A stretch of DNA of 64,000 bases, taken from the NCBI RefSeq assembly GCF_018919395.1, contig NZ_JAHLME010000004.1, positions 248,001 through 312,000 on the forward strand. The letters run 5' to 3'. The notes below the pieces were generated by a model that did not search any database, was not told where the DNA came from, and saw nothing but the letters and a program-made list of their open reading frames with translations. A program made the translations under genes and the position numbers. Below are positions 2,493 to 61,820 of the stretch, one piece after another. Within the stretch, counting starts at the first letter, position 1. Each line of letters starts with the position of its first letter. This DNA comes from Geomonas azotofigens. Lineage in GTDB: Bacteria; Desulfobacterota; Desulfuromonadia; Geobacterales; Geobacteraceae.

Positions 2493-4430
2493 CTATTCTT
2501 CCTTGTGCTTCTTCTTGGAGGCGGACTTCTTCTTCGAGGAACCCTTTTTGGAGGACTTCTTCGAGGACTTCTCCTCCTTATCCTTGGACTTCTTCCCTTT
2601 CTTCCCCTTCTTGGACTTGCTCCCGCTCGATCCCTTGTGCTTGCGGAAGCTCCTTGGCTCGGGGTTGAACTCGTCCTTGATGTTGCTCAGAAGAACCTGC
2701 GCCTCTTCCAGTTCCGGGTCGGCCTTTCTGGCCGCCTCCAGGGATTCCTTGGCCTCGGCGATGTGGCCGTCCTTCATCTGCACGCGCCCCATGGCGTTCA
2801 GGGCCTTGGCGTGGTCGGGTTTCAGCTTCACCGCCTCCTTGTACTCGTCGGTGGCGGCGGTGTAGTTCTTCTGGAACTCGTAGACCAGCCCCAGCTTGTA
2901 GTGGGCGTTGGCGTCGTTGGGGGAGAGCTCCACCCCTTCCTTCAAGAGCTTGGCCAGGGAGTCGTAATTCTTGTTCTTGACGTAGATGGCGGTGAGGGCG
3001 GTGCGGGCCTCCTGGTCGTCCTTCTTAAGGCGCAGCACCTCCTGGTACTCGTTGGCCGCCTGGTCCATCTCGTTACGCTTGCGCAGGAGGTTGGCCAGCT
3101 CGCGGTGGGCTTCCAGCGACTCCGGGTCCAGCTTGATCGCGCCCTGGTAGGCGCTGATGGCGGAGTCGAGGTCCTTGGTGTTCACGAAGGCGCGGGCCAG
3201 TTTGAGCTGAGTCGCGGCGTCGCCGGGGTTCGCCTTGATGAGCGCCTGGTACTGCTCCAGCGCCTGCGGGAAGCTCCCCCTCAGCGTGTAGATCTCGGCC
3301 AGGCGCTGGCGTGCCTGCTGGTTGTCCGGCGTGCTGGCGAGCACCTGGCGGTATTCCACCACCGCCTCGTCAAGGAGCGCCTTGCGCTCGTAGATGCCGG
3401 CCAGGTTCAGGTGCAGCTGCGGGTTCTCACCCTTGTTCCGGATGGCGTCGCGGTAGTAGGACATCGCCTCGTCCTCGCGTCCCACCGACAGCAGGCAGTC
3501 GCCCAGGCGCTGCTGCGCCGCGGCATCGGCCGGCTCCTCGGCGATCCTCAGGCGATACTCGCTGATCGCCATCTCGTAGTCCTTGGCGTTCTTGTACTGG
3601 TCGGCGAGGGCCATGTGGTCGACCTTGGGCGTCTCCTTCACCTTGGGGGCGATGCCGGCCAGCACCCGCTCGTACTCGGCGCTCTTCTGGTCACCCTTGC
3701 GAAGGTACCCCTCGGCGAGCAGGCGGTGCACCTCCTTGTTGCCCGGCTCGGCGATGGCGGCCTGCTTCAGCTCGGTCACCGCCTTGTCGACCTCGCCCCG
3801 GGCGAGGAGCAGCGCCCCGAGCCCCAGGCGGGCCCTGGCGCTGCCGGGCTGGATGGCGAGCGCCTTTCTGTATTCGTCCTCGGCCTTTTGCTTCTGTCCC
3901 ACCGCGTCGTAGGAAACGGCCAGGTCGTTGTGCAGGGAGGCATCCTCGGGGAAGGCGGCGAGCGCCTCGGTATAGTGGAAGATGGCGAGCTGGTGCAGCT
4001 CCTTCTGGGCCAGGATGCGGGCCAGTCCCCCGTGGTAGCGCGGGTCGCCGGTCTTGAGCCCCTGCGAGAGCTCCACGGCGGCCTCCTCGCTGGCACCCTT
4101 CTGCAGGTGCAGGAGCCCCAGGTTGCCGCTGGCGGGGTAGAACTCCGGGTCCAGCGCCAGGGTCTCGCGGTACTCCTGGATGGCGGCGTCAATGTTGCCG
4201 CTGCGCTCGAAGGCGAGGGCCTTGAGGTATCGGCCGGGGGCGCCGGTGGGGCAAAGCTCCGCCACGCGCTTTTCGGCATCCTTTTTCTTTTGCTCGCTCG
4301 CCTGCGGGGGGAGTTCCAGGATGATCTTCTTCGCTTCCAGGCAGCTGTTGGTCGCGGGAAACGGCCAGCTGAAGCCGGTGCTGAACAGGGTCACCGCGAG
4401 AAGCGACGACAGTGCTGCGTATCTTTTCAT
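2493..4430 (-). CDS. Large exported TPR-repeat protein with lysine-rich tail
   Basis: The frame is open to 4628, but the first plausible start is the ATG at 4430, which opens a signal peptide (MKRYAALSSLLAVTLFSTGFS), giving 645 residues. The body is almost entirely tetratricopeptide repeats of 34 residues (for example DAAIQEYRETLALDPEFYPA and EVDKAVTELKQAAIAEPGNK), about 14 copies. The last 55 residues are an extremely basic, low-complexity Lys/Ser tail (many KK and SKK steps) with no similarity to the repeats. TPR arrays are protein-interaction scaffolds; a periplasmic or outer-membrane assembly role is likely but unproven. The tail could bind nucleic acid or polyanions. Confidence 0.85.
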   Translation of the reverse strand: MKRYAALSSLLAVTLFSTGFSWPFPATNSCLEAKKIILELPPQASEQKKKDAEKRVAELCPTGAPGRYLKALAFERSGNIDAAIQEYRETLALDPEFYPASGNLGLLHLQKGASEEAAVELSQGLKTGDPRYHGGLARILAQKELHQLAIFHYTEALAAFPEDASLHNDLAVSYDAVGQKQKAEDEYRKALAIQPGSARARLGLGALLLARGEVDKAVTELKQAAIAEPGNKEVHRLLAEGYLRKGDQKSAEYERVLAGIAPKVKETPKVDHMALADQYKNAKDYEMAISEYRLRIAEEPADAAAQQRLGDCLLSVGREDEAMSYYRDAIRNKGENPQLHLNLAGIYERKALLDEAVVEYRQVLASTPDNQQARQRLAEIYTLRGSFPQALEQYQALIKANPGDAATQLKLARAFVNTKDLDSAISAYQGAIKLDPESLEAHRELANLLRKRNEMDQAANEYQEVLRLKKDDQEARTALTAIYVKNKNYDSLAKLLKEGVELSPNDANAHYKLGLVYEFQKNYTAATDEYKEAVKLKPDHAKALNAMGRVQMKDGHIAEAKESLEAARKADPELEEAQVLLSNIKDEFNPEPRSFRKHKGSSGSKSKKGKKGKKSKDKEEKSSKKSSKKGSSKKKSASKKKHKEE

Positions 4431-7640: not shown

Positions 7641-8692
7641 AACTAGCCGAACTGGGCGAATTCGGCCTGATAGACAGGATCAAGGCAAACGTCGCCGCGT
7701 CCCCCTCGGTGCTTCTCGGCATCGGGGATGACGCGGCGGCGCTGTCTCCCACCCCCGGGCAGGTCACCCTGATCACCTCCGACATGCTGCTGGAGGGGGT
7801 CCACTTCGACCTCTCCTTCTGCGACCCGCACACCCTGGGCAGAAAATCCCTCTCCGTGAACCTTTCCGATGTCGCCGCCATGGGCGCCCGCCCGCGCCAC
7901 TTCCTGCTCGGCGTGGCGCTCCCCAAGGATGTCCCGCTTGAATTCATGGACGGCTTCATGGCCGGAATGCTGGAACAGGCGCAGCGCTACGGCGCGACCC
8001 TGGTGGGGGGGGACACCTGCGCCTCCAAGGGGGGGGTCGCCATCTCGGTGACCGCACTCGGCGAGCAGCGCCCGGAGCTGGTAGTGACGCGAAGCGGCGC
8101 GAGGCCCGGGGATCTCGTCTGCGTGACCGGAACGGTCGGGGACGCGGCGGCGGGACTGAAGCAGTTGTTTCAAGGGGTGCGGGACGGTTTCCTGGTGGCG
8201 CGGCAGCTGGATCCGACGCCGAGGGTGGAGGCGGGGGTGGCGCTCGCCGAGGCGGGCGTGGTTACCGCCATGATCGACGTGAGCGACGGGGTGCTGCAGG
8301 ACCTGGGGCACATCTGCGAGATGTCGGGGGTGGGGGCGCGCCTGGAATTGGCCCGGCTGCCGCTTTCCGAGCACTACCTGGCCTACTGCGAGGGCAGTCA
8401 TGCCCCCCTTGCCCCTTGGGAGAGGGACGGGGGTGAGGGCGCTGCTACCGGCAAGGAGTCTCCCGGTGACGATCCTTTCGCGCTGGCGCTGTCCGGCGGC
8501 GAGGACTACGAACTCCTCTTCTGCATACCCGCCGACAAGGAGGCCGAGGTGGCGGCGCTCTGCGCGAAGGTCGACCTCCCGGTCTCCGTGATCGGCGCGA
8601 TCACGGCGGAAAGCGGGATACAACTTGCCGCGCCGGACGGCTCACCCTACACGCCGCCGCGGCGCGGCTTCGATCACTTCGGCGCCGACTAG
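7637..8692 (+). CDS. thiL: Thiamine-monophosphate kinase with a repeat-derived insertion
   Basis: ThiL phosphorylates thiamine monophosphate to thiamine diphosphate. Motifs: GEFGLIDRI at the N-terminus, the Mg/ATP site LLGIGDDAAAL, LITSDMLLEGVHFD, SLSVNLSDVAAMGA, VGGDTCAS and the late ALSGGEDYELLF. The start is a TTG overlapping the lon stop. The 351 residues exceed the usual ~325; the excess is at about residues 256-279, between LAYCEG and DDPFALALSGGEDYE, where a GC-rich intergenic-type repeat (8403-8446) is translated as SHAPLAPWERDGGEGAATGK. The ATP-site motifs flanking it are intact, so activity is likely retained. Confidence 0.95.
8403..8446 (+). repeat. GC-rich dispersed repeat copy inside thiL
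   Basis: The core, 8406-8440, matches the intergenic repeat at 31789-31830 almost base for base (CCCCTTGCCCCTTGGGAGAG against CCCCTCGCCCTCCGGGAGAG, both then reading G-rich to GAGGGCGCTG). It keeps the thiL frame open. Confidence 0.75.
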
Positions 8693-59895: not shown

Positions 59896-59914
59896 GCCGG
59901 CGGAGGGGAAAACG

Positions 59915-59949
59915 AAAAAAGGGGGCTCGCAAGAGTCCCCTTTTTTTTT
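59915..59949. terminator. Bidirectional intrinsic terminator
   Basis: AAAAAAGGGGGCTC and GAGTCCCCTTTTTT with loop GCAA; A and T runs on both sides. It can end the GGDEF-EAL transcript and the minus-strand zinc-ribbon/FAH transcript. Confidence 0.9.
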
Positions 59950-60023: not shown

Positions 60024-60167
60024 TTACTTGCAGCCGCACCCTTTGGAGTTGTCTCCGCTCAGGGGAAGCTTCTTGCCGCACTTCTGGCACCGCCAGAAGA
60101 GGCCACCTCAACCGGGCATGAGGATCATGAGCCCCTGGCAATCGGGGCAGCTTTTCTCGTTGCTCAT
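60024..60167 (-). CDS. Zinc-ribbon mini-protein with an in-frame UGA (possible selenoprotein)
   Basis: ATG 60167 has a perfect AGGAGG 7 bases upstream. The frame reads MSNEKSCPDCQGLMILMPG, then TGA at 60110-60108 (codon 20), then GGLFWRCQKCGKKLPLSGDN SKGCGCK to TAA. The two halves together make one zinc ribbon (CPDC...CQKC, as in topoisomerase C-terminal fingers) with a GCGCK tail; neither half alone makes sense. Eight bases after the UGA, CTTCTGGC-GGT-GCCAGAAG forms a perfect 8-bp stem with a GGU loop, like a bacterial SECIS. It could be a selenocysteine codon, readthrough, or a nonsense mutation (from TGG or CGA). Follows the FAH gene by 31 bases. Confidence 0.6.
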
Positions 60168-60198
60168 ATGCAAACCTCCTTTGTTGGCTAAAGCCTCT

Positions 60199-60855
60199 CT
60201 AGCGGACCGAAACGGCGATGCTCCCCACCCCGGCGATCTCGGCCACGACGCGGTCGCCGCTCTTGATCGGGCCGACCCCCGCGGGCGTGCCGGTCAGCAC
60301 CAGGTCCCCCGGCTCCAGCGTGAAGATGGAGGAGAGGTAGCTCAACAGCTCGGGGATGCGGTGGATCATGAGATCCGTACCGCCATCCTGGCGCTTCTCG
60401 CCGTTCACGGTGAGCGTGATGCGCAACTGGTGCGGGTCGGCCACCTGCGCTGCCGGGACGAACGGGGAGAGGGGGCAGGCGGTGTCGAACCCCTTGGCGA
60501 TGTCCCAGGGAAGCCCCTTCTTCTTGAGCTCCGCCTGCACGTCCCTGAGGGTCAGGTCGATGGCGACGGCGTAACCCGCCAGGTAGGAGAGGGCGTCGGC
60601 GGCGGGAATGTCGCGTCCCTTCCTGCCGATCAAAAGCGCCAGCTCGGCCTCGTGGTGGCAGTCGCTGGAATAGGCGGGGATCACGATCTCTTCCCCCGCG
60701 CCGATGACGCTGGTGGCGGGCTTGGTGAAGATCACCGGGCGTTCCGGGGTCTCGTTGCCGAGCTCCTTGATGTGGTCCGCGTAGTTGCGCCCGATGCAGA
60801 GGATCTTGCCGATCCGTACCGGCTCCGCGCTTCCGATCAGTTGTGCCGTCTTCAT
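60199..60855 (-). CDS. Fumarylacetoacetate hydrolase family protein
   Basis: 218 residues from ATG 60855 (AGGAGA upstream). FAH C-terminal-type domain: KILCIGRNYADHIKELGNE, PVIFTKPATSVIGAGEEIVIP, CHHEAELALLIGRKGRDI (metal Glu pair), GYAVAIDLTLRDVQAELKKKG, KGFDTACPLSPFV, LTGTPAGVGPIKSGD. Members include acylpyruvases, oxaloacetate decarboxylases and maleylpyruvate-type hydrolases; the short single-domain form suggests acylpyruvase or oxaloacetate decarboxylase activity, but the substrate cannot be fixed. Confidence 0.92.
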   Translation of the reverse strand: MKTAQLIGSAEPVRIGKILCIGRNYADHIKELGNETPERPVIFTKPATSVIGAGEEIVIPAYSSDCHHEAELALLIGRKGRDIPAADALSYLAGYAVAIDLTLRDVQAELKKKGLPWDIAKGFDTACPLSPFVPAAQVADPHQLRITLTVNGEKRQDGGTDLMIHRIPELLSYLSSIFTLEPGDLVLTGTPAGVGPIKSGDRVVAEIAGVGSIAVSVR

Positions 60856-60866
60856 GGTTCTCCTCT

Positions 60867-61820
60867 TCAGGCCGCCCTGACCTCGCTGGCAAGCCGGCAT
60901 CCCTGCCAGCTGCCGCGCCTTCTCAGCTCGTTGATCACGGCGTACCACATCTGGTTGTTTTTCAGGTTCCAATTGGGGGCGACCCGGATGGAAAGCGGCG
61001 CCGACCCGTACAGCCTTTGCACCGCGACCCGCGCCGGGAGCTCCTCCAGGAAGTCGCAGGCGGTCGCCACGTACTCGTCGATGCCGATCGGCTGCCAGCT
61101 CCCGTCCCGGTACATCTCGGCGAGCCTCGTGTTCTCCACCGCGTGCAGCTGGTGCAGCTTGACGGAGTTGACCGGCAGCGACGCGATCAGGCGCGCGGTC
61201 TTCAAAAAGCCGCTCCTGGTCTCCCCGGGGAAGCCGTAGATCAGGTGGGTGCAGATCTCCAGGCCGCGGCCGGAAAGCCGCTCCACCGCGTCCAGGTACT
61301 CGGCCAGGGTGTGCCCGCGGTTGATCCGGGAGAGGATGGCGTCATCCATCGACTGCAGCCCGAGCTCCACGCAGACGTAGTGCTCGCGCGCCAGGTCGGT
61401 CAGAAGCTCGATGGCGCCGGGGGAGAGCGAGTCGGGGCGGGTCCCCACCGAGATGCCGAGCACGTCGGGGTGGGCCAGGGCGCGCCGGTACAGCTCCGCG
61501 AGCTTCTCCACCGGCCCGTAGGTGTTGGTGTACTTCTGGAAATAGACGATGAACTTGTCGCTGCCGAGGCGTTCGCGGTGGTAGGCCATCCCCGCGGCCA
61601 TCTGCTCCTCGACCGGGATCAGGGCCTGGGTCTCCTTGGGGGAGAAGGAACTGTTGTCGCAGTAGATGCACCCGCCGGTGCCGCGGCTGCCGTCGCGGTT
61701 GGGGCAGGTGAAGCCGCCGTCGACGTTCACCTTGCTGACGCGGCAGCCGAAGCGGCGCCTGAGGTAGGAGCCGTAGGAGTTGATGCGCAGTTCGCTATGG
61801 ATCGGTTCGCCGACGGTCAT
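60867..61820 (-). CDS. TIGR01212 family radical SAM protein (YhcC-like)
   Basis: 317 residues. Starts INSYGSYLRRRFGCRVSKVNVDGGFTCPN; the cluster cysteines lie in FTCPNRDGSRGTGGCIYCDN, the widened C-x11-C-x2-C pattern of this family. Later motifs: GTRPDSLSP, VELGLQSMDDAILSRINRGH, THLIYGFPGETRSGF, LHQLHAVENTRLAEMY. The enzyme's reaction is unknown. Adjacent to thiE with no gap, so co-transcribed with the thiamine genes. Confidence 0.93.
   Translation of the reverse strand: MTVGEPIHSELRINSYGSYLRRRFGCRVSKVNVDGGFTCPNRDGSRGTGGCIYCDNSSFSPKETQALIPVEEQMAAGMAYHRERLGSDKFIVYFQKYTNTYGPVEKLAELYRRALAHPDVLGISVGTRPDSLSPGAIELLTDLAREHYVCVELGLQSMDDAILSRINRGHTLAEYLDAVERLSGRGLEICTHLIYGFPGETRSGFLKTARLIASLPVNSVKLHQLHAVENTRLAEMYRDGSWQPIGIDEYVATACDFLEELPARVAVQRLYGSAPLSIRVAPNWNLKNNQMWYAVINELRRRGSWQGCRLASEVRAA

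Follow-up and report, generated by a model that had tools for sequence, protein, structure and literature searches.

A 47-codon gene with an in-frame UGA

The minus strand of the window (by which we mean the whole 64,000-nucleotide stretch of Geomonas azotofigens DNA that was analysed) carries a short gene that opens with an ATG at position 60167, closes with a TAA at 60026–60024 and contains a single in-frame stop codon, the TGA of codon 20 (Table 1). If this codon is read as selenocysteine (Sec, U), the read-through product is the 47-residue protein MSNEKSCPDCQGLMILMPGUGGLFWRCQKCGKKLPLSGDNSKGCGCK. A hairpin begins 8 nt past the UGA; its perfectly paired arms (CUUCUGGC, 60099–60092, and GCCAGAAG, 60088–60081) enclose a GGU loop (60091–60089) that starts 16 nt past the UGA. 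A preliminary description, which named no strand, had claimed an AGGAGG ribosome binding site seven bases before the ATG, a TGA at codon 20 and a perfect 8-bp stem with a GGU loop at this distance from the UGA, and direct reading of the minus strand found every one of these features, at the positions given in Table 1.

Table 1 Features at and around the locus.
Feature	Position	Strand	Basis
Gene for the putative selenoprotein	60024..60167	minus	47 codons plus TAA; frame read directly, and homologues
In-frame UGA, codon 20, very probably read as selenocysteine	60108..60110	minus	TGA in all intact homologues; 49/49 distinct genes in the codon table
Ribosome binding site AGGAGG	60175..60180	minus	7 nt before the ATG; read directly
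SECIS-like hairpin, 8-bp stem CUUCUGGC/GCCAGAAG, GGU loop	60081..60099	minus	Folding; invariance, including at synonymous sites; model constraints (PMC13188914)
FAA_hydrolase-family gene, 218 aa, directly upstream	60199..60855	minus	PF01557, E=2.8e-66
Radical SAM protein gene, next upstream	60867..61820	minus	PF04055 and PF16199; synteny
Terminator-like hairpin between the convergent selenoprotein and GGDEF/EAL genes	59914..59947		Consensus match only

The gene is probably co-transcribed with the FAA_hydrolase-family gene, which lies directly upstream in 45 of the 49 distinct Geobacterales loci that could be evaluated, and this also holds for loci with no adjacent radical SAM gene. The latter gene comes next upstream in many Geobacteraceae and, as judged by synteny, not in the other families. 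In seven genomes that keep the FAA-hydrolase gene and have no copy of the selenoprotein gene, neither a remnant nor a Cys version was found downstream of it.

The preliminary description had noted that no selA, selB or selC gene lies in this window; in the genome as a whole selA, selB, selC and selD are all present outside it, and provide SelA, a full-length SelB, SelD and a tRNA-Sec with a UCA anticodon. The selD gene of this genome is itself a TGA gene, and its TGA is followed, at a nearly equal distance, by an 8-bp stem with a 3-nt GGC loop. The selD SECIS and the hairpin studied here are thus alike in stem length and in having a 3-nt loop that begins with GG and starts 16–17 nt past the UGA, whereas their stem sequences are unrelated. 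Within the window, a weak selD-like match at 7694–8395 (73.8 bits, below the cut-off, with no TGA) is probably a different protein from the ATP-binding superfamily to which SelD belongs. Elsewhere in the Geobacteraceae, tRNA-Sec and full-length selB genes both occur in two copies in three genomes without the small selenoprotein (G016, G024 and G036), with one copy of each on a shared contig, and a second Sec-decoding system is possible in these organisms.

Conservation of the UGA and of the hairpin behind it

Within the genus, homologues of the gene were found in 15 of 19 genomes, each with exactly one internal TGA, at codon 20. The remaining four genomes have selB and tRNA-Sec and contain neither the gene nor a remnant of it; it is therefore dispensable. 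Across the class, 56 of 277 genomes gave a full match, every one of them carrying the TGA, and no full-length match without it was found. Scanning some 85,000 species genomes yielded 44 loci: one lies on a Methylomirabilota contig (L095), and the others come from relatives within the Geobacterales (Geomonas, Citrifermentans, Geotalea, Oryzomonas, Trichlorobacter, Geobacter, a Pelobacter-labelled bin and others). Together these searches place a TGA at the same codon, at all intact loci, in about 50 distinct genes from the Geobacterales and that one contig. One copy, from Geotalea toluenoxydans (L096, 4001–4143, and L038), lacks one base just after the TGA, which breaks the frame and marks either an assembly error or a pseudogene. 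Several weak matches (L024, L039 and L048–L052) were rejected as relatives, being unrelated or ordinary CXXC proteins with no TGA at the site.

This distribution bears directly on a doubt raised in the preliminary description, namely that mutation of TGG or CGA to TGA would give the same picture. On this account the TGA would have arisen recently in an otherwise ordinary zinc-ribbon gene; a sequencing error in such a gene is a related possibility. Both sense codons are one base away from TGA, and a single genome would look the same under either account. However, intact homologues from several families and from independent assemblies all have the TGA, and inspection of codon 20 revealed no sense codon in any of them, whether for Cys, Trp, Arg or another residue. 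Mutation or error is accordingly rejected, and we regard it as almost inconceivable.

Taken alone, the hairpin is only moderately unusual by comparison with chance. A 33-nt piece containing it has a more stable fold than 199 of 200 shuffled versions (z = -2.7), and a longer piece around it folds unremarkably (z = -0.5). Moreover, when codons common in the locality were drawn at random for the peptide GGLFWRCQKC, an 8-bp stem arose at that spot in about 25% of draws. Because the folding signal is weak by itself and codon bias accounts for this proportion, we do not treat folding as the main evidence. Chance is instead ruled out by the presence of the TGA in every intact homologue together with the absence of any synonymous change in the stem codons.

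In 49 distinct Geobacterales genes, codons 23–29 read CTC TTC TGG CGG TGC CAG AAG, and the sole exception is one gene in which CTC has become CAC, with the paired third-base C retained. Adjacent invariant residues do vary synonymously: C7, C10 and C30 use TGC or TGT (39:10), G21 uses three codons and G31 four. The genes in this codon table were chosen by protein pattern, and the invariance of the codons is therefore not an artefact of selection. A count of changes on a tree built from the neighbouring FAH protein gave none at the third positions of the stem codons, as compared with 4–13 at nearby invariant codons that have synonyms; the genes for this count, equal in number (49), were chosen by a DNA pattern of which the stem forms part. 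As no stem pair varies among the homologues, there are no compensatory changes and covariation is uninformative, and synonymous invariance was used in its place.

The hairpin also fits the bacterial SECIS model, the constraints of which, as quoted in PMC13188914, are a loop of 3–9 nt, a stem of 4–16 bp, a G within the first two loop positions, a distance of 16–37 nt from the UGA and a minimum free energy of at most -7.5. With its 3-nt GGU loop, 8-bp stem, 16-nt spacing and energy of -10.9 to -16.7 kcal/mol, it lies within all of these limits; the preliminary description had noted that published models allow roughly this geometry. A search of the region against Rfam returned nothing on the hairpin, and only weak sub-threshold matches elsewhere in the stretch.

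Two other readings would leave the UGA without selenocysteine. UGA normally stops translation, and the region past it is constrained at the RNA level, as a regulatory hairpin would be; codon 20 might then be a true stop that ends a 19-residue peptide or leader, with the downstream conservation reflecting an RNA element or a separate product. However, codons 30–47 keep their amino acids while their third positions change (as at C30 and G31), and the C-terminal Cys pair persists. This is constraint on a protein in the same frame; in addition, the sister family NF041197, discussed below, has Cys at the equivalent codon. We accordingly consider a true stop very improbable. Still less probable, in our estimation, is SECIS-independent decoding by a near-cognate tRNA, for example as Trp: no bacterial stop codon is leakier than UGA, but read-through of this kind would not require a SECIS-type hairpin to be free of synonymous change, and the genome has the machinery for Sec. 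Selenocysteine is the clear reading when the conserved UGA, the constraint on the hairpin and its fit to the SECIS model, and the presence of SelA, SelB, tRNA-Sec and SelD are considered together, and sequence comparison further shows constraint on the protein both before and after the UGA. The 47-residue protein is thus, as the preliminary description had proposed, very probably a real selenoprotein with Sec at codon 20, and comparison of the sequences suggests that insertion would be SelB-dependent. In the mechanism we envisage, SelB carrying Sec-tRNA(Sec) would bind the hairpin right after the UGA, and selenocysteine would be put in at residue 20 to give a 47-residue zinc ribbon.

Predicted structure and possible role

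An AlphaFold model of the protein, made without zinc, is zinc-ribbon-like, with strands at residues 13–19 and 22–27 (pLDDT 74.6, pTM 0.51). In the model two CXXC knuckles flank a beta-hairpin, as is characteristic of a zinc ribbon; according to the preliminary description, the two halves of the frame make one such domain only if the TGA is read. C7 and C10, together with C27 and C30, are the likely zinc ligands. Given the positions of the two strands, Sec20 falls in the turn of the hairpin, and we have moderate confidence that it sits between the CXXC knuckles and off the ligand positions. The best fold matches, all with E above 0.001, were to the ribbons of Rpb9-type RNA polymerase subunits, topoisomerase I and ZifS. 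These ribbons share the two CXXC knuckles and the beta-hairpin; unlike them, the protein described here is predicted to have Sec in the hairpin turn, and it has a C-terminal Cys pair and stands alone at 47 residues. The Cys pair (C44 and C46 here) is found in 48 of 49 Geobacterales genes, and it is plausible that it partners Sec20 in a Se–S bond.

These features raise the possibility that the four CXXC cysteines would hold zinc, that Sec at the hairpin tip would carry out redox chemistry or bind soft metals or electrophiles, and that the C-terminal Cys pair would act as the partner of Sec; each of these steps is a guess. As the most likely role we tentatively suggest that of a small protein, centred on Sec, which would act in redox chemistry or bind soft metals or electrophiles and would be produced together with an enzyme of the FAA-hydrolase family. 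The fuller proposal, with Sec at the zinc-ribbon tip, away from the metal and partnered by the C-terminal Cys pair, serving the enzyme encoded next door, is possible and put forward with similar reserve. Were this so, Sec would be put to use in a way that fits neither the thioredoxin-like nor the zinc-ligand pattern, and in a lineage for which no Cys version was found. With its unvarying hairpin and its conserved FAA-hydrolase neighbour, the locus offers direct handles on what Sec does at such a position.

Relation to the NF041197 family

The preliminary description had cautioned that no zinc-ribbon cysteine lines up with the UGA position. This is correct, and a selenoprotein family with the same architecture has already been catalogued, namely NF041197 (dual CXXC motif small (seleno)protein). 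The Geobacterales proteins have the spacing CX2C-X9-U-X6-CX2C in 50 of 50 genes, and resemble NF041197 in this spacing (CX2C-X9-[U/C]-X6-CX2C), in the position of Sec, in small size and in occurring in the same phylum. In a sample from that phylum, precisely the equivalent position holds Cys or UGA in the members of NF041197. Profile–profile comparison gave a probability of 96% (E=2.9e-9 over 31 columns), and all 22 aligned members matched NF041197, weakly, with no other model scoring better.

The identical spacing and the profile similarity would also be expected of a plain NF041197 orthologue that forms no separate branch. We consider this unlikely, although clearly less so than the alternatives to selenocysteine weighed above. 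The protein scores 24.3 bits against a curated cut-off of 40, and no genome of the class, and hence no Geobacterales genome, reaches that cut-off. A 2026 review lists the NF041197 family twice, as OS_HP3 (RxU) and as hypothetical protein DW of deep-Sep (GxU) (PMC13188914); the Geobacterales genes have neither of these motifs, their sequence being PGUGGLFWRCQKC, and in place of the conserved acidic tail of NF041197 (LDxxxExxL) they have a short tail that ends in the Cys pair. Furthermore, Cys replaces Sec in many NF041197 members, whereas the class search found no Cys homologue within the Geobacterales branch; Sec/Cys pairing is thus seen only by way of this distant sister family. On these comparisons the Geobacterales proteins are best called a Sec-only sister branch of NF041197, of the same broad kind.

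The branch is apparently unreported: our literature search found no paper naming the gene, the small zinc-ribbon selenoprotein does not appear in the 2006 selenoprotein lists for G. sulfurreducens and G. metallireducens, and neither species has a record among the titled matches of the species-genome scan. Its parent kind is known but unstudied, so that the family is not wholly new. Such genes, being short, interrupted by a stop codon and without close Cys homologues, would escape surveys that rely on Cys/Sec pairs, and the locus contributes a well-supported branch of selenoproteins that is not captured by curated models.

The Methylomirabilota relative (L095, around 4001–4117), which belongs to a different phylum, is of a GDU type, with an identical SECIS stem, a GUU loop and a longer C-terminus, and lies beside a starch-synthase-like gene and a metallo-beta-lactamase-fold gene; it is possibly a product of horizontal transfer or a link to NF041197. 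The NF041197 members sampled from the phylum (L112–L141) are a mosaic of Cys and Sec forms, and in several of the genomes there are two copies, of which one has a much lower score; these weaker-scoring copies may represent a further subfamily.
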